A stretch of 11,629 nucleotides of DNA from a bacterium (GTDB lineage Bacteria; JACRDZ01; JAJRWM01): assembly GCA_024276815.1 (NCBI GenBank), contig JAJRWM010000157.1, positions 1-11,629 on the forward strand, given 5' to 3'. Below are positions 1,682 to 11,629 of the stretch, in pieces; positions within the stretch are counted from its first letter, which is position 1, and each line of letters starts with the position of its first letter. The position numbers and the translations under genes are program-made. The notes beneath the pieces were generated by a model, which was not told the origin of the DNA, searched no databases, and saw nothing but the letters and a program-made list of their open reading frames with translations.

Positions 1682-2881
1682 ATGTTTTTGGTACTCAAAG
1701 TGGGAGTCATTGGTTGCGGACGCATCGCCTCTCTCCTGGAGGAAGACCCCTTAAGAGAACACCCCTGTACTCACGCCGGAGCTTATCGCGAGGTTGAGGG
1801 CGTTGAGATAGCGGCGGCCTGCGATATTAACCGGGAACGTCTGGAACGATTCTGCGCTACCTGGGATGTGGAACGTAAGTATCAGGATTACCGGGAGTTG
1901 CTCGCCCAGACAGATATCGAGGTCGTCAGCGTCTGCACCTGGCATGACAGCCACGCCGGAATCGTGGTGGCGGCGGCTAAAGAACCGCATATGCGGGCTA
2001 TTATCTGCGAAAAGCCGGTCGCCATGAATTTAGCTGACGGCCGGAAAATGGTTGAAACGGCCGGAAAACATAACGTTCAGTTGGTTGTCAATCATGAACG
2101 CCGCTGGCAGAGCAACTACCGGAAAGTAAAAGAGATCATTGATGAAGGATTGATCGGTCCGGTGCGCACGGTCATCGGTAACATCCTGACCGGCACGCCC
2201 AGAGCAGACAGTTGGCAGAGCAGTTTCGGGCGGGTTGGCGGAGGCCCTTTGCTGCATGACGGGACTCACTTAATAGATATCATGAGGTTTTTGTTTGGCG
2301 ACGCGCTTTGGGTCTACGGCTGGGCGGAACGTAATGACGACGAACTGCCGGTTGAGGACACAGCGGTGGCCCTGATCCTGTTTGAGCGGGGAGTAAAGGC
2401 TTTTATCGAAGGCGGCGGGCGGCGCAATTATTTTAACTTTGAACTTGATATCCAGGGACGGGACGGCCGGATTCTCATCGGCAACGGGCTGTTAAAATTA
2501 TGGCGCAGCAATACTTCGAGCCGCTATAGCGGGTTCTATGATCTGGTCGAGGAACCTTTTCCCGCTTTCGCATACCAGAATCCCTATGTGGCGATGGTCG
2601 AAGAATTAGTCAGCGGTAAGGAACAAACCAGTTCCAGCGGAGTTGACGGTCTGGCCGCGCTGGAAATAATTATGGCCGTCTATCATTCCGCCGCTCGGGG
2701 GGGCGTCAAGGTCGCCTTGCCCTTTAAAAAGAAATATTCGCCGCTTAAAAAAATGTTTTCCCGGGCTGGAGAGAGGCCATTAACGCTTTGTTCCGTTTCT
2801 TTCGTAAACACAGCAATACTCCGCCGGCTGAAAGCTTGCCGGTTGCCCGGGACGCTTTCATCGGCCAGGCTGAAATCATAA
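1682..2881 (+). CDS. Gfo/Idh/MocA family NAD(P)-dependent oxidoreductase
   Basis: A Rossmann fold opens the protein with GVIGCGRIAS (residues 8-17), the dinucleotide-binding loop. The family signature EKP is at 110-112 (CEKPVAMNLADG). The C-terminal catalytic domain carries GGGPLLHDGTHLID (186-199) with the expected D193, H196 and D199. The family oxidises or reduces sugar, inositol or related hydroxy substrates with NAD(P); the substrate cannot be predicted. Recognisable family sequence ends near residue 350 (ALPFKKK). The last 40 or so residues look unlike the family and overlap the next gene by 94 bases (see findings). Start: the purine run GGGAAAGGGG (1672-1681) directly touches ATG 1682, leaving no spacing, whereas TTG 1688 two codons later has a 6-base spacing. 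The true start may be TTG 1688 and the protein two residues shorter. Confidence 0.88.
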   Translation: MFLVLKVGVIGCGRIASLLEEDPLREHPCTHAGAYREVEGVEIAAACDINRERLERFCATWDVERKYQDYRELLAQTDIEVVSVCTWHDSHAGIVVAAAKEPHMRAIICEKPVAMNLADGRKMVETAGKHNVQLVVNHERRWQSNYRKVKEIIDEGLIGPVRTVIGNILTGTPRADSWQSSFGRVGGGPLLHDGTHLIDIMRFLFGDALWVYGWAERNDDELPVEDTAVALILFERGVKAFIEGGGRRNYFNFELDIQGRDGRILIGNGLLKLWRSNTSSRYSGFYDLVEEPFPAFAYQNPYVAMVEELVSGKEQTSSSGVDGLAALEIIMAVYHSAARGGVKVALPFKKKYSPLKKMFSRAGERPLTLCSVSFVNTAILRRLKACRLPGTLSSARLKS

Positions 2882-4335
2882 ACGCCTTAACGCCGATAAT
2901 TAATACCACCAACAGCTCCCAAGCATGTCTCCCGCACCTCCTGCTTCAGGGGAGCTACGGTAGCGGTCGCCAAACTCTGGCCGGCTGGCTGGCGAACAAG
3001 ACCGGCCGCCGCAGCCATTTTTTTGACGCAGCGGAACATGCTGGCGTTTCGGACCTTATCTTAACGCTGGCCGAAATTGAATCATCAGAGATTTTGATAA
3101 TAAAAAACCTGGACCGTGTTTCGCCTGAAATCATGAAGGCGCTGCTGGAGATCCGGCAAACGAATTCTCTGGTCTATCCCAATCCCCAGACGGGTGAAAA
3201 AGAGCGCTGGGAGACTCCTGCCTTCACGATAATCGGCATAGTTAACGATGGTGAAAATCTCCCCCGACAGTTGCGGGACGGCTTTTCTTATCAATTCATC
3301 TTCAGAAGCTATACCAACAATGAAGCCGCCCGGATTATTTATAACTGGGGACGTATCCTTTTTCCCGCCGCTCAGCGTCTGGCTGAATTAACCGGTCGTC
3401 GTTTACCTTTGGCCTGGGAAGTATACCAGTCTCTTTTCGAGGCCAAGTTTGAGTCGCAACCGGAAATCAATGTCGCCAGCGTGGAAAAAGCGGTCGCCAA
3501 TCTGGAACTGGACAAGAATCACCTGACCAACCAGGAACGCTTTTTTCTCAAGCTTTTAATTGAATCCGGGCAGCCGGTCACAGAAAAAGTCCTGGCGGCG
3601 GAACTGAACCTTACGCCTCTGGCGGCCGATAACAGGAAAAAATACCTGGCGGACAGTAAGTTCATCGTGACAACGCCGGCCGGCTGGCTGGCAACCCTGA
3701 GGGCGCGTCTGGCCTTAAACCTGCTTCAGCCTTTTGACCGGCAACTGGTAAAGTTAAGCAGCCGGGAAACCAGGGAAGAGGCGATCCGGCAACTGGTGGA
3801 GCGAAAAGAAGAAAGCGTTCGCTACCTTGTCCGCACTCTGTCTGAGCCGGACCGGAAACTGAAAGCAAGCGCTCTGCGCGTAATCTCCCAAATGGCGGAA
3901 AGCGTTTTCCCGGAACTGGAATCAGAATTAAAAAACAAGGATATTCCGGTCCCGGTTAAAATGGCAATCATCAAACTGCTGGGCGAGAGCCGGTCGCCCC
4001 AGGCCTTACCTGTTTTACAAAGGGTCGTCAATTCCCGCGAGCCATGCTTGAGGCTTGCCGCCATTGACAGCATGGGGTTGACCGGCCAGGGCAAAGCGAT
4101 AACTTTTTTAACCCGGCTGATAAAAAAAGAAAAAGAACCGGTACAATTGGCCGCTGTCGCCGCCTTGCGAAAACTTGGCAGCTTCGAAATTATTCTGCCG
4201 CTCAAGGAACTGGTCAACAGCGTGCCGTTCGTGGTCCAGAAAGCGATTCTCGCCGCGCTCAGACAGGTTGGCGATGAAAACGTCGCGGAACTGTTGGATA
4301 AAGAAAGGGCTTATTGTCAAAATGGGAAGAGATGA
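2788..4335 (+). CDS. RuvB-like AAA+ pseudo-ATPase fused to HEAT repeats
   Basis: A protein of 515 residues. Residues 17-310 can be laid along the Holliday-junction helicase motor RuvB: FIGQAEI (24-30, RuvB YIGQ), LLLQGSYGSGRQTLA (51-65, Walker A region), EILIIKNLDR (101-110, Walker B region), FTIIG (146-150, sensor 1), LRDGF (162-166, arginine-finger region), then a RuvB-type winged helix (about 244-310) with LADSKFIVTTPAGWLAT. The nucleotide-binding residues are changed: Walker A K to R61 with the next S/T to Q62, Walker B DE to KN (106-107), LRDRF to LRDGF, and the PRIANR sensor 2 stretch is lost. ATP hydrolysis is therefore unlikely. Residues 325-505 hold about five or six HEAT-like helix pairs, typical protein-binding scaffolds. 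The TTG start at 2788 is preceded by GGAGAGAGG (2768-2776); TTG 2836 is an alternative. It overlaps the kinase gene by 14 bases, suggesting translational coupling. RuvB ancestry is fairly sure; function is unknown. Confidence 0.8.
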   Translation: MFRFFRKHSNTPPAESLPVARDAFIGQAEIINALTPIINTTNSSQACLPHLLLQGSYGSGRQTLAGWLANKTGRRSHFFDAAEHAGVSDLILTLAEIESSEILIIKNLDRVSPEIMKALLEIRQTNSLVYPNPQTGEKERWETPAFTIIGIVNDGENLPRQLRDGFSYQFIFRSYTNNEAARIIYNWGRILFPAAQRLAELTGRRLPLAWEVYQSLFEAKFESQPEINVASVEKAVANLELDKNHLTNQERFFLKLLIESGQPVTEKVLAAELNLTPLAADNRKKYLADSKFIVTTPAGWLATLRARLALNLLQPFDRQLVKLSSRETREEAIRQLVERKEESVRYLVRTLSEPDRKLKASALRVISQMAESVFPELESELKNKDIPVPVKMAIIKLLGESRSPQALPVLQRVVNSREPCLRLAAIDSMGLTGQGKAITFLTRLIKKEKEPVQLAAVAALRKLGSFEIILPLKELVNSVPFVVQKAILAALRQVGDENVAELLDKERAYCQNGKR

Positions 4336-6916
4336 ACTCAGATCCAAGATCAAAGATATCAAGGACTTGCCCACCCTGCCTTTAGTTGTTACCCGAATAC
4401 TTCAGTTGGTGAGCGACCAGGAATCGTCGGTCGATGACGCCGCTAATCTTATCCGTACGGATCACGCCATCGCGGCCAAGATCCTGAAAGTGGTCAACAC
4501 CGCGTTTTACGGCTTTCCCAAAAGAATCACGACCATCAGCCAGGCTGTCGTCATTTTGGGATTCAATCCTATCAAGCACCTCCTGCTGAGCGTGTCCGTT
4601 TTCGATCTTTTCCGCGATAAAAACAATGACCGGGTATCCTTTGACCTGAAAAAGTTCTGGGGACACTCCCTGGGTACGGCGGTAGCCTCGGAAATGATCG
4701 CGAAAACAACAGGATACCCCCAGCCGGAAGAAGCGTTTTTGGCCGGTCTTTTGCATGACCTGGGCAAAATTATTCTCTGCCTGTATTTACCTGATGAGTT
4801 CTCGCAAGCGCTGGATACTGTCCTGAAACAGGAGTTGTATTTTTACCAGGCGGAGAAGAAGGTTTTTGAGACCGACCACGGCCTGATCGGGAAATGGGTC
4901 GCGGACAAGTGGAACCTGCCGCCCCTTCTGGTCAGCGCGATACGTAACCACCATCAGACGCCGACCTTTATCAAAAAACTGGAACCGGCCTCAGCCCAAC
5001 TGACCGCTATCGTTAAAATCGCTGACGGTATCATCAAGCGGGAAGACATCGGTTTCAGCGGCGATTACCGGATACCGGCCAAAGAGCCTGAATTGCTGGA
5101 TTTCATCGGTTTGAGCGATTCAGATTACGATCAGGTATTCATCAAGTTGAAAGAAGGTATTCAAAAAGCCGCGGAAGTCCTGAACATAAGCAACCAGGAA
5201 TTACCTGATTACACTGTTTCCATCCAGCAGGCCAACATCGAACTGGGCGAGATCAATCTTTCCCTGGAACAAGCCAATATCGCCCTCACCCAGCGGCTGA
5301 CAGAACTTTCCGCCCTTCATGAAATAGGGTTTGAGTGGCACAAACAACGCGGGTTACATGACACGCTGACCATGATTTGCCGAAAAATACACGAGGTTTT
5401 AGGCTTCGACCGTGTTTTATTGGGCCGCTATCAGAAAAACACGAAAACGCTGGAATTCCAATTGTTGCTGGGTCAAAACTGCCCTCAGCCTTTCAGCCTG
5501 GGCGTCACGGCTGACAGCGTTTTCAGCCATATCTTTACCACCAAAAAATCTGTCAACCTTGAGGATGTCGAGCGCTCTGAATATGCCGGTGAAGATTTCT
5601 TTCGGCGGATAAAATCCCACGCCTGCGCGATCTTTCCCATAATTGCCAACCAGGAAATTGTGGGAGTGATCGTCGTTGACAATCAAAAAAACGATAAAAC
5701 GATCAACTCCGACAACATCAAATCGCTGGAAACTTTTGTAAATCACGCCGGCGCCGCTTTTGAAAGAGATGACTTGATTCATTCTCTGGAAATCGCCAAC
5801 AACGAACTAACCGACGCCAATAATGAACTGAAGAATAAGGTGCTTAATTTAACGGCTCTGAAAAATTATAATCAACTGATTATCGAGAGTATGACCAACG
5901 GGATAATCACCATCAACAAGGACCTGCTGATTATCGTCTCCAACCCGGCCTGTGAAGATATCCTGGGCCTGAAAAGGGGAGAAATTATGGGCAAAAAGAT
6001 CGACACGATCATGAGCCTGAAAAACCTGACTACGATTTTAAAGCAAACGATTAATGACGGTAAACCCTTTGTCCGTCATGAAATAAAGCTGGTCAGGCCC
6101 GATAATCAACAGGAACTGACCCTGGGAATCAGCACCGCTCCTTTAAAAGACAAAGACCAGAAGAAAATCGTCGGCGCTATTTCTATTTTCCGCGATCTGA
6201 CCAAGTTGAAACAGTTGCAGGCTTCTTTACGCCGACGGGACAAGCTCTCGGCCCTGGGGGAAATGGCTGCTGCTCTGGCGCACGAAATCCGCAATCCGCT
6301 GAACCCGATAAAAGGCTTTGCCCAGCTTATGGAACGGGAAATTCCGGCAGACGACCCCCGCCGGGAATACACCCGGATAATAATTCATGAAGTTGACCGG
6401 TTGCGGCTGATGCTGACCCACTTTTTAGAGTTCACCCATTCCAAGGAATTATACCTGGAAAGCGTTGACATCAACCATTTAGTCTCTGAGACCCTGCTCC
6501 TGATCAGTAACCAGGAAGGCACCAGTGTGATTATGTTTGGCACGGAGTTGGCCGAGGATCTCCCCCCGGCGCTGGTTGATGAAAACTACCTTAAGCAGGT
6601 AATGCTTAACATCATCCAGAACGCTACGGATGTCCTGCTTGAGAGCAAAGGGGAAGGCTCCGAGATTATCATCCGCACCAGGAAACTGAACGATCAATAT
6701 CTGGTTATTGAGGTTGCCGATAACGGTCCGGGTATTACGGCCGAGAACCAGAGCCGGTTGTTTGAACCGTTTTTTACCACCAAAAAGAACGGCACTGGTT
6801 TGGGTTTATCGACTTGTTATCGTATAATTGAGGATCATCAGGGAGAGTTAACCTTCAAGAGCGAGCCGGGGCAGGGCGCCACTTTTATAATCAAACTGCC
6901 TTTAGCCAGGGAGTAA
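4322..6916 (+). CDS. Soluble HDOD-GAF-PAS sensor histidine kinase
   Basis: An 864-residue protein with no membrane segment, so a cytoplasmic sensor. Order: an HDOD domain (about 8-285) starting with LPTLP (17-21) and containing H115, HD at 145-146, H186, HH at 210-211 and D234; a helical linker with repeated QANI; a GAF domain (about 328-480); a short coiled coil (about 485-512); a PAS domain (about 513-630); HisKA with the phospho-acceptor H654 in ALAHEIRNPLNP; and HATPase_c with the N box around N767, DNGPGI at 800-805, FEPFFTTKK at 814-822 and GTGLGLS at 824-830. All kinase catalytic boxes look intact. ATG 4322 is chosen because the HDOD family starts just after it and AAAGGG (4304-4309) lies upstream; the frame stays open further up but only inside the preceding gene. 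The next gene, a double-receiver regulator, begins two bases after its stop and is the likely partner. Confidence 0.93.
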   Translation: MGRDELRSKIKDIKDLPTLPLVVTRILQLVSDQESSVDDAANLIRTDHAIAAKILKVVNTAFYGFPKRITTISQAVVILGFNPIKHLLLSVSVFDLFRDKNNDRVSFDLKKFWGHSLGTAVASEMIAKTTGYPQPEEAFLAGLLHDLGKIILCLYLPDEFSQALDTVLKQELYFYQAEKKVFETDHGLIGKWVADKWNLPPLLVSAIRNHHQTPTFIKKLEPASAQLTAIVKIADGIIKREDIGFSGDYRIPAKEPELLDFIGLSDSDYDQVFIKLKEGIQKAAEVLNISNQELPDYTVSIQQANIELGEINLSLEQANIALTQRLTELSALHEIGFEWHKQRGLHDTLTMICRKIHEVLGFDRVLLGRYQKNTKTLEFQLLLGQNCPQPFSLGVTADSVFSHIFTTKKSVNLEDVERSEYAGEDFFRRIKSHACAIFPIIANQEIVGVIVVDNQKNDKTINSDNIKSLETFVNHAGAAFERDDLIHSLEIANNELTDANNELKNKVLNLTALKNYNQLIIESMTNGIITINKDLLIIVSNPACEDILGLKRGEIMGKKIDTIMSLKNLTTILKQTINDGKPFVRHEIKLVRPDNQQELTLGISTAPLKDKDQKKIVGAISIFRDLTKLKQLQASLRRRDKLSALGEMAAALAHEIRNPLNPIKGFAQLMEREIPADDPRREYTRIIIHEVDRLRLMLTHFLEFTHSKELYLESVDINHLVSETLLLISNQEGTSVIMFGTELAEDLPPALVDENYLKQVMLNIIQNATDVLLESKGEGSEIIIRTRKLNDQYLVIEVADNGPGITAENQSRLFEPFFTTKKNGTGLGLSTCYRIIEDHQGELTFKSEPGQGATFIIKLPLARE

Positions 6917-6918
6917 GA

Positions 6919-8262
6919 ATGTTAAACCAGGTTTTAGTTGTTGATGATGTTGGTTATACCAGGGCGCTGTTTCAACATGCCTTAAATGGTGAAGGGTATG
7001 ATGTCTGTTGCGCTGAAACCGGGATGGAAGCGCTTCGGTGTATTGAAAACGAGCTGCCCAGCCTGGTTATTCTGGACATTAACTTACCTGATATTTCCGG
7101 GATTGAAGTGCTTGAAGAGATGCGCCGCAAAAAGCATAAAACTCCGGTTATTATCATTACGGCCCGCGATGATGAAACTTTCCTGCAAAAAGCGGTGGAT
7201 TTAGGTGTCTACGCTTTTTTAACCAAACCGGTTGATTTGAATGAGTTCCTGGCTTTGCTACCCGCCATATTTGATCCGACCAGCCATATCTTAATTGTTG
7301 ACGATGAAGAGCTTACGGTACAACTATACACCAATGTTTTAAAGGCCGAAGGATACCGGACCAGCAGTTCAACCAACGGGGAAGAAGCCCTTAAATTATT
7401 GCGCTACCGTCATTATGACGCCGCGGTGCTGGACCTTAACCTGCCCGGTATTGACGGAGTGGAGATTTTAAGACAGGTCAGGGCGTTGGGCGAGACCCTG
7501 CCGATCGTCATCACCTCCGCCTATGCCGACCAAAGCACGGAGAAGCAACTTCAGGAATATAAAATTGATGGTTTCCTGGAGAAGCCCATTGACACCTCGC
7601 GGCTGATCATGATCATCAAAAACCTGGTTGGCACTGTCACCTCCAGGGCTGAAAACGATTTTTCAATCTATGACTTTGAGGGCCGGGTCAGAAACAGCTT
7701 GCTGTTAAAGCGGTTAATTTCACAGGCGATAAAAAAGAAATTTACCCGTTTTATTTTTAACCTGACCAAGGTCACCAGCATCAGTAAATCGATTGAGGAA
7801 ACGCTGCTGACAATCCTGGGCAAAAATATTCTGGCCAGCCGGATTGTCTTGACCGACGACCAGCAAATTGATTTTTTGAAAAGCGTCCAGCCGTCCCCTG
7901 TCTTTCGCAGCGTTGATCTCGCCAAACGGAACATTCTTGAGGCGACGATACGCCAGGAGGCCATCGATGAAGAGCTTTCCGTTAAGCCGGAAAAAGCGGA
8001 GCGGGTGCGCGATCTGACCGATTATGACGGGGAAACCTATCTTGTCCTGCCCATTCCCAAGGAAGAGATGGAGGTCGGCATGATTTTGGCCAACCCCATA
8101 AGCAATGAGTCGGGAAAAGTTGTTTTGTTGAGCGAGGGAGTAACCTTAACCGCCAAGGATATTGAAAGAATCCTGGAACTGGAACACGTTACGGATATTT
8201 TTATCAAACAAAAACACTTTCGTCAGGGTGACTCGCCTGATCAAGCGCCCGATAACGATTAA
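6919..8262 (+). CDS. Response regulator with two receiver domains, a STAS-like segment and an HD-GYP-flank-like tail
   Basis: A protein of 447 residues. Receiver 1 (1-118) has the acidic pair D9 D10, phospho-acceptor D53, T81 and K103. Receiver 2 (121-238) has D128 D129, D172, S200 and K222. Both have complete phosphorylation sites. Residues 248-342 alternate strands and helices in a way reminiscent of a STAS domain (FIFNLTKVTSISKS at 278-291); this is tentative. Residues 374-430 (LPIPKEEMEVGMILANP, then LLSEGVTLT) resemble the segment that precedes the HD domain in many HD-GYP proteins, but no HD domain follows. No DNA-binding, GGDEF or enzyme output domain is visible, so it probably acts by protein contacts. 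GGGAG at 6909-6913 lies 5 bases before ATG 6919. The stop shares one base with the rsmD start (TAATG), indicating translational coupling. Confidence 0.9.
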   Translation: MLNQVLVVDDVGYTRALFQHALNGEGYDVCCAETGMEALRCIENELPSLVILDINLPDISGIEVLEEMRRKKHKTPVIIITARDDETFLQKAVDLGVYAFLTKPVDLNEFLALLPAIFDPTSHILIVDDEELTVQLYTNVLKAEGYRTSSSTNGEEALKLLRYRHYDAAVLDLNLPGIDGVEILRQVRALGETLPIVITSAYADQSTEKQLQEYKIDGFLEKPIDTSRLIMIIKNLVGTVTSRAENDFSIYDFEGRVRNSLLLKRLISQAIKKKFTRFIFNLTKVTSISKSIEETLLTILGKNILASRIVLTDDQQIDFLKSVQPSPVFRSVDLAKRNILEATIRQEAIDEELSVKPEKAERVRDLTDYDGETYLVLPIPKEEMEVGMILANPISNESGKVVLLSEGVTLTAKDIERILELEHVTDIFIKQKHFRQGDSPDQAPDND

Positions 8263-9990: not shown

Positions 9991-11629
9991 ATGATACAGC
10001 AAAACAAATTAGCATACGCCAACCGCTGGTTACTACTTTTTTTCTTTTTTCTCTCCGGCATGAGCGGTCTCATTTACGAGGTCTTATGGGTCCGACAGCT
10101 CTCCTTGATCTTCGGGGCGACGGTTTTGGCGGTAAGCACCGTTCTCAGTTCCTACATGGCCGGCCTGGCGTTGGGAAGTTATTTCTTCGGGCGCTGGGTT
10201 GACAAGTTACAGTTTTCTCCCCTTAGGGTTTATATTGTATTAGAAGCCGCTGTGGGCTTAACAGCCTTACTTTTACCCTTCGCTTTTAAACTCCTGTTAT
10301 CTCTTTACCCTCTGTTAACTTCCTGGTTCGGGAGTTCATTTCTGTTCGGCCTGGCCAGATTCATCATTCTTTTCTGCTTGCTTTTATTGCCCACTTTTTT
10401 AATGGGCGGGACTCTGCCGGTGATCAGCCGGCTTTTTGTCGCGGCGGAAGAAAAGCTTGGCGGCGATATTGGTAAAATCTACGGCTGGAATACTTTCGGC
10501 GCGACTGTTGGCTGTTTCATCACTGGTTTTTGGCTGATCAACCGCTTCGGGGTGGCCAACTCCAACTATTTCGCGGTAGCGATAAATTTTATGGTCGCCC
10601 TGGGCGTTTTTATTACCCTGCGGGATTTGCTGGAACTGACCGGGCCGGCCGCTCAAGTTCCAGCGCCGGTTAAGCCGGTTAAAAAGAGGCGCCCTTCCCG
10701 GGAGAAACTGTTAGTCCTTGTGGCAATCAGCGCTTCGGGTTTCACCGCCTTGGTTTACGAGGTTGTCTGGACGAGGCTTTTGACCTTGATTTTAGGAGCG
10801 TCTGTTTACGCCTTCACGATCATGCTGACCATTTTTTTAGCCGGCATTGCCCTGGGCAGCCTGGTTGGCGGCCAACTAGCCGATAAAAGCGAAAATCCCT
10901 TGTTTGGTTTCGCGGTCCTGGAAATACTGATCGGAATTTTTGGTATTATTTTGGTCTCCGTCTTTAACTATCTGCCCAACGCGTTTTTACATGTTTACAT
11001 TAATTACTCCAGCGACTGGAGCACCGTGACGATCTTTGGCATCTGTTTTGCCGCCACGATGATGATCCTGCCGACCTTTTGTTTTGGGATGACTTTCCCC
11101 TACGCCATCAAGCTTTATTTTTATGGCAGCGAGGAACTGGGGCGGGATGTTGGCGTAATCTACAGCGTGAATACGGTCGGCTCGATTTTTGGCTCGCTGG
11201 CCGCCGGTTTTATCGGTATTCCCTATTTAGGCACCCAGATGACCAGCAGATTGAATGTCTCGCTGAACCTTCTGATTGGTATCAGCCTGATTGTTTTTAT
11301 CGGTGAGTTTGTTCAGAGCAAGAAAAGGCTGGTAGCTCTCTGCCTGGCCGTAATACTTATTCCCGGCCAGTTTTTACTCCCCGGCTGGAGCCAGAAAACG
11401 CTGGTCAGCGGCGTTTTCTTTTCTGTGAAGGAAAACTTCTTCTCTGATCTGAACGCACCCGGCCAGAAATCCGCCAGCGAAGGGAATCTTCTCTTTTTCG
11501 AGGAAGACGTTACGGCGACTGTTTCCGTACTCGGTTTTGAAAAAGGCGACAAGAGCATTCAAATCAACGGCAAAACCGTGGCGTCAACCAACTATAAGGA
11601 TATGAGGCTCCAGCAGATGCTGGGACACC
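9991..11629 (+). CDS. Membrane-fused spermidine synthase-like protein, 3' partial
   Basis: An uninterrupted frame of 546 codons runs off the window end. It matches the type often annotated as fused MFS/spermidine synthase: a polytopic membrane part followed by a soluble aminopropyltransferase-like domain. Around 12-14 hydrophobic segments cover residues 12-465. The membrane part is an internal duplication: SGMSGLIYEVLWVRQL (22-37) and SGFTALVYEVVWTRLL (249-264) correspond, as do MAGLALGSYFFGRWVDK (56-72) and LAGIALGSLVGGQLADK (283-299). A basic linker (KKRR, 231-234) separates the halves. The soluble part begins near residue 500 with EEDVTATVSV, NGKTVAST and QQMLGH, the usual lead-in to the Rossmann domain, but the catalytic core lies beyond the window. 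Polyamine synthesis is therefore unproven. ATG 9991 fits the first membrane helix; no clear ribosome binding site precedes it. Confidence 0.88.
   Translation, partial: MIQQNKLAYANRWLLLFFFFLSGMSGLIYEVLWVRQLSLIFGATVLAVSTVLSSYMAGLALGSYFFGRWVDKLQFSPLRVYIVLEAAVGLTALLLPFAFKLLLSLYPLLTSWFGSSFLFGLARFIILFCLLLLPTFLMGGTLPVISRLFVAAEEKLGGDIGKIYGWNTFGATVGCFITGFWLINRFGVANSNYFAVAINFMVALGVFITLRDLLELTGPAAQVPAPVKPVKKRRPSREKLLVLVAISASGFTALVYEVVWTRLLTLILGASVYAFTIMLTIFLAGIALGSLVGGQLADKSENPLFGFAVLEILIGIFGIILVSVFNYLPNAFLHVYINYSSDWSTVTIFGICFAATMMILPTFCFGMTFPYAIKLYFYGSEELGRDVGVIYSVNTVGSIFGSLAAGFIGIPYLGTQMTSRLNVSLNLLIGISLIVFIGEFVQSKKRLVALCLAVILIPGQFLLPGWSQKTLVSGVFFSVKENFFSDLNAPGQKSASEGNLLFFEEDVTATVSVLGFEKGDKSIQINGKTVASTNYKDMRLQQMLGH

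Follow-up and report, generated by a model that had tools for sequence, protein, structure and literature searches.

RuvB is among the most conserved bacterial motors. What, then, might a RuvB-like protein do that has lost its motor residues and gained a HEAT repeat tail? The question is raised by an open reading frame at positions 2788-4335 (plus strand) of the window, by which we mean the whole 11,629-nucleotide stretch of DNA analysed here, from contig C83 of a draft genome of 2.39 Mb in 246 contigs. The frame begins with TTG, encodes 515 amino acids and follows a Shine-Dalgarno-like element read from the sequence, GGAGAGAGG (2768-2776, plus strand), 11 nt 5' of the start. Its 515 codons run without a stop or frameshift, and the reading frame is unchanged across the junction between the RuvB-like and HEAT parts. 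Codon usage in both halves is similar to that of the neighboring genes, which suggests a working gene and speaks against decay or recent foreign insertion. Upstream, a Gfo/Idh/MocA oxidoreductase frame (1682-2881) overlaps the gene by 94 nt in a different frame; its final ~50 residues lie beyond the family domains, and may reflect an earlier true end or a frameshift hidden by the overlap.

Is the protein really a relative of RuvB? The assignment rests first on the sequence profile and second on a structural model. The NCBIfam RuvB model PRK00080 matched residues 19-312 (profile positions 22-326 of 330; 88 bits, E = 5.4e-25), TIGR00635 scored 80.7 bits (E = 9.3e-23), and Pfam RuvB_N reached 45.1 bits, above its gathering cut-off of 27. 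The scores stay far below the equivalog cut-offs of the two NCBIfam models (282 bits for PRK00080 and 299 for TIGR00635). Other AAA+ models trailed RuvB by many orders of magnitude in the NCBIfam scan: the RFC small subunit model scored 13.2 bits against a cut-off of 317, far from clamp loader/RFC membership, and PHROG clamp loader matches were weak (best, 35 bits). Judged from the sequence, the resemblance to RuvB is far beyond chance.

An AlphaFold2 model of the protein (mean pLDDT 83.9) contained every RuvB subdomain followed by HEAT helices, although its alignment input consisted of 42 RuvB sequences from viral contigs, which biases the model towards RuvB. Within this RuvB-aligned model we found the three-domain fold of RuvB, including the presensor-1 hairpin (strands 127-131 and 138-142) and the winged helix (wing strands 293-296 and 299-302). 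The best solved-structure match of its first 320 residues was RuvB 7x5b (Z 29.8, 3.0 Å, 301 residues); RUVBL proteins and clamp loaders were distant next matches (Z about 17), and Foldseek agreed. In a single-sequence run, only the HEAT tail was modeled with confidence, and the RuvB part was not. Based on the NCBIfam match and the comparison of the model with 7x5b, the RuvB-like region spans residues 18-312 (2839-3723, plus strand) and comprises the large and small AAA+ subdomains and the winged helix. The first-pass annotation, made from the sequence alone, had proposed a RuvB relative rather than a member of another AAA+ clade, and both the profile and the fold comparison bear this out.

To locate what has been lost, we aligned the protein with 111 RuvBs from its own genome, other genomes, and GTDB genomes. 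Ninety-nine columns were conserved in at least 95% of these RuvBs, and the 515-residue protein keeps 34 of them. Residue roles were taken from structural papers on RuvB (PMC9477746 and PMC10272136), whose residue numbers we mapped onto the protein by motif and spacing. All the motifs that follow lie on the plus strand and were placed by the alignment. Walker A reads GSYGSGRQ (residues 55-62; 2950-2973) where RuvB has GPPGLGKT; K61R and T62Q replace a lysine and a threonine that are essentially invariant among the 111 RuvBs, and the GxxGxGK[T/S] pattern is lost. Walker B reads ILIIKNLDR (residues 102-110; 3091-3117) instead of VLFIDEIHR, with D106K and E107N at two equally invariant positions, so that the DE pair is missing. 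Sensor 1, GIVND (residues 150-154; 3235-3249) in place of GATTR, has lost its threonine (T153N), and the arginine finger is gone from LRDGF (R165G; residues 162-166; 3271-3285; LRDRF in RuvB). Sensor 2 has become GRRLPLAWE (residues 203-211; 3394-3420; RGTPRIANR in RuvB), in which the arginine is absent from LPLAWE and E211 stands at the aligned position. The N-terminal ATP-contacting arginine (R17L) and the aspartate of the trans signature (D122I) are lost as well. Retained are the signature glutamate (E121), the equivalent of Arg101 (R110), the P-loop glycines G55, G58, and G60, and other conserved positions.

How unusual is this pattern? The Walker A GK[T/S] and Walker B DE residues were kept in all 38 RuvBs tabulated from this and other genomes, which had been retrieved by similarity to the 515-residue protein and not by motif. 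Viral RuvBs also keep the Walker residues, but they were selected by their intact motifs and so provide no test of conservation. In these comparisons, the joint loss of the motor motifs is exceptional. Conserved positions were kept less often when charged (8 of 36) than when uncharged (26 of 63), a difference that is only suggestive (P = 0.08).

The first-pass annotation had named R61/Q62, K106/N107, LRDGF, and LPLAWE as substitutions, and each was found where it had placed them. Its description of the protein as catalytically dead fits the lost ATPase residues; a wholesale loss, on the other hand, is contradicted by R110 and E121, which are retained. From the alignment, motor activity appears very unlikely, hydrolysis of ATP would not be expected, and nucleotide binding seems unlikely; weak binding may persist, as lysine to arginine is a conservative change.

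The DNA contacts point the same way. Thermus thermophilus RuvB holds DNA with a triad of wing arginines, R297, R300, and R302 (PMC10272136). In the wing of the present protein (residues 293-303; 3664-3696, plus strand; alignment), the equivalent residues are T295, A298, and W300 (TTPAGW versus RTPRGR). The equivalent of the DNA-contacting Arg147 is D154 (R154D in the alignment). That the protein binds DNA in the manner of RuvB is thus predicted to be unlikely.

What the protein has gained is a tail of helical pairs at residues of about 315-511 (3730-4320, plus strand), supported by HEAT_2 and by helices in both structural models. Pfam HEAT_2 scored 61.4 bits over three stretches, against a cut-off of 27.7, which places the tail among HEAT repeats; the gain of HEAT-like repeats that had been proposed for it is therefore upheld, and the tail is modeled confidently even without an alignment. 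Of the two options in the first-pass proposal of a DNA- or protein-binding scaffold, the DNA option is weakened because the wing triad and the Arg147 equivalent are lost, and the HEAT tail favors the other. NACHT gave only a sub-threshold match (11.9 versus 26.7 bits), located in the HEAT part, and for the RuvB-like core Pfam returned neither NACHT nor NB-ARC; the core is therefore not that of a STAND protein. We also considered a defense system; PADLOC matches were confined to the HEAT part, and no system was called.

Could the protein simply be the RuvB of this genome? An ordinary ruvB with intact GPPGLGKT, FIDEIHR, LRDRF, and RGTPRIANR motifs lies on contig C26 of the same genome, and a full-length, intact ruvA lies on contig C122. 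The genome thus does have another ruvB, the separate intact copy that the first-pass annotation had proposed looking for, and with both genes present the RuvB-like protein is not its branch migrase. In the tree, the branch of the RuvB-like protein was 4.4 long, against a median of 0.21, and had no particular placement; the genome's own RuvB was no closer to it than other RuvBs. Its origin may accordingly lie in an old duplication or an import, and the earlier label of RuvB paralogue holds for RuvB homology but not for paralogy, given the lack of extra closeness to the genome's own RuvB.

Several further observations concern these genomes. The genome's own RuvB (contig C26, 4174-5241) shares 70% identity with sequences from Geobacteraceae and Desulfuromonadales, which, in a phylum represented by four genomes, could be explained by horizontal transfer, by binning, or by real relatedness. 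Another genome of the phylum (G003) carries two intact ruvB genes, on contigs C8 and C55 (C55, 1494-2516), and draft contamination may be involved. Contig C9 of the source genome holds another RuvB_N-type match (7683-8036; 45.8 bits, over the cut-off) with one in-frame TAA, and contig C60 (4484-5215) encodes a small secreted protein whose C-terminus carries a PEP-CTERM-like sorting signal, PEPGTMLLLGSGLLGLGGFRKKSE.

We then asked how widespread this make-up is. It did not turn up in the three remaining genomes of the phylum, in 386 spread bacterial genomes and 386 of one other phylum (about 770), or by exact-peptide scans of genome and viral contig collections. Likewise, we found no orthologue in 17 genomes around the closest RuvBs or in two tiny phyla. 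These negatives hold at the thresholds used and for the lineages sampled, and distant orthologues could escape them. Four second candidates with partial RuvB matches (L059, L060, L061, and L062) turned out to be standard RuvBs whose Walker motifs are intact. The open-licence literature that we searched contained no description of a naturally inactive RuvB or of a RuvB-HEAT make-up, in line with the earlier remark that no described family has this make-up. The whole finding rests on one orphan sequence from a single draft genome. We conclude that an inactive RuvB-family AAA+ protein fused to HEAT repeats is real and unusual, and a single orphan.

The genomic context, absent from the first-pass annotation, is a tight operon that also encodes a histidine kinase and a response regulator. 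An 864-residue HDOD-GAF-PAS-HisKA-HATPase kinase (4322-6916, plus strand) starts at an ATG within the RuvB-like gene; the two genes share 14 nt, and the stop codon of the RuvB-like gene (4333-4335) thus falls inside the start of the kinase gene. The gene of a two-receiver response regulator (6919-8262, plus strand) begins 2 nt 3' of the kinase stop and shares 1 nt with rsmD, which is followed by coaD and a gene for thioredoxin. Such overlaps and close spacing suggest that the RuvB-like gene is transcribed together with the kinase gene and that their translation is coupled. Since the operon continues into rsmD, coaD, and the thioredoxin gene, shared transcription by itself does not single out a partner. 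Near the other HDOD genes that we checked in the phylum there was no HEAT or RuvB-like gene; the arrangement was seen only at this locus. The kinase, with its HDOD domain at the N-terminus, had no full-length match in 98 genomes at E ≤ 1e-60. In the response regulator, the tandem receivers are followed by a C-terminal stretch of ~200 residues without a clear family. Further along the window, an MFS-type fused spermidine synthase-like protein (9991-11628) is cut through by the contig end.

Taken together, we tentatively favor the reading that the protein is a pseudo-ATPase derived from RuvB and extended by a HEAT tail, serving as an adaptor or scaffold for the co-encoded kinase. The pseudo-ATPase part of this reading appears well supported, and, going by gene order alone, the kinase would be the likeliest partner. 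The three-domain RuvB fold would be retained as a frame, with no ATP cycle and no RuvB-style grip on DNA, and the HEAT tail would offer a surface for protein binding. The protein may bind the HDOD-GAF-PAS kinase, or a partner upstream of the kinase, and so tune signaling to the two-receiver response regulator.

A related reading, which we regard as possible but doubtful, is that of a RuvB-derived sensor module, in which a motor fold without ATPase or DNA function, joined to HEAT repeats, provides an input or adaptor for the kinase and has reached a STAND-like layout independently. Somewhat less probable is a ligand-gated switch that binds nucleotide without hydrolysis and has its domains arranged as in STAND sensors. 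The P-loop glycines, the conservative K61R, and the succession of ATPase core, winged helix, and repeat tail speak for such a switch, but T62Q, D106K, E107N, R17L, and the absence of sensor 2 take magnesium, phosphate, and nucleotide contacts away from a core that matches neither NACHT nor NB-ARC. We think it unlikely that the scaffold serves a target other than the kinase, such as something that works with the housekeeping genes downstream, or a protein encoded elsewhere; unrelated housekeeping genes do share the operon, yet the immediate neighbor, with an overlapping start, is the kinase. Less likely again is a non-catalytic regulatory subunit of RuvAB that joins or caps the genome's own RuvB hexamers and modulates branch migration. 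The full RuvB fold of the model and the intact RuvA and RuvB of the genome would suit such a subunit, but the trans residues of the subunit interface (R165G and D122I) and the DNA contacts are lost, the gene sits in a signaling operon away from the ruv genes, and its product is not especially close to the RuvB of the same genome. Least probable is a functionless ruvB copy in decay, or a chimera created during assembly, which the long branch, the single draft genome, and the 94-nt overlap with the preceding frame might suggest, but which is at odds with the uninterrupted frame across the junction, the neighbor-like codon usage of both halves, and the fold predicted at a mean pLDDT of 84 with RuvBs as the alignment.

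Should the protein indeed function as a scaffold, as we favor, the RuvB fold would be recruitable for signaling after the loss of its engine. The protein also offers a natural comparison of RuvB positions, in which the 34 kept would be structural and many of those lost would serve the motor.

How does this make-up compare with known systems? STAND ATPases (NACHT/NB-ARC sensors) carry a P-loop core, a winged helix, and superstructure-forming repeats in that order. The 515-residue protein has the same order of parts, but its core is RuvB-like and its nucleotide site degenerate; the likeness is one of layout only, because the core has no NACHT or NB-ARC match. In the clamp loader, delta prime is a degenerate AAA+ scaffold, a structural part without ATPase activity within a replication machine; it belongs to a different AAA+ family from the present protein and has no HEAT tail. 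Eukaryotic RUVBL1 and RUVBL2, whose folds come next in similarity (Z about 17), are active ATPases with an inserted domain II and, unlike our protein, no HEAT tail. Closest is RuvB itself (TIGR00635/PRK00080; PDB 7x5b, 1hqc, and 7pbl), with 22-28% identity, homology over all three domains, and the same predicted fold; the 515-residue protein differs in lacking the ATP, magnesium, arginine finger, sensor 2, and most DNA-contact residues, and in carrying the HEAT tail. Two of its changes, the Walker A lysine to arginine and the removal of the arginine finger, have counterparts in the Thermotoga maritima RuvB mutants K64R and R170A (PDB 1in6 and 1in7), in which the RuvB fold persists. Those mutants are single changes made in the laboratory, whereas here all the motifs have been altered together in nature.
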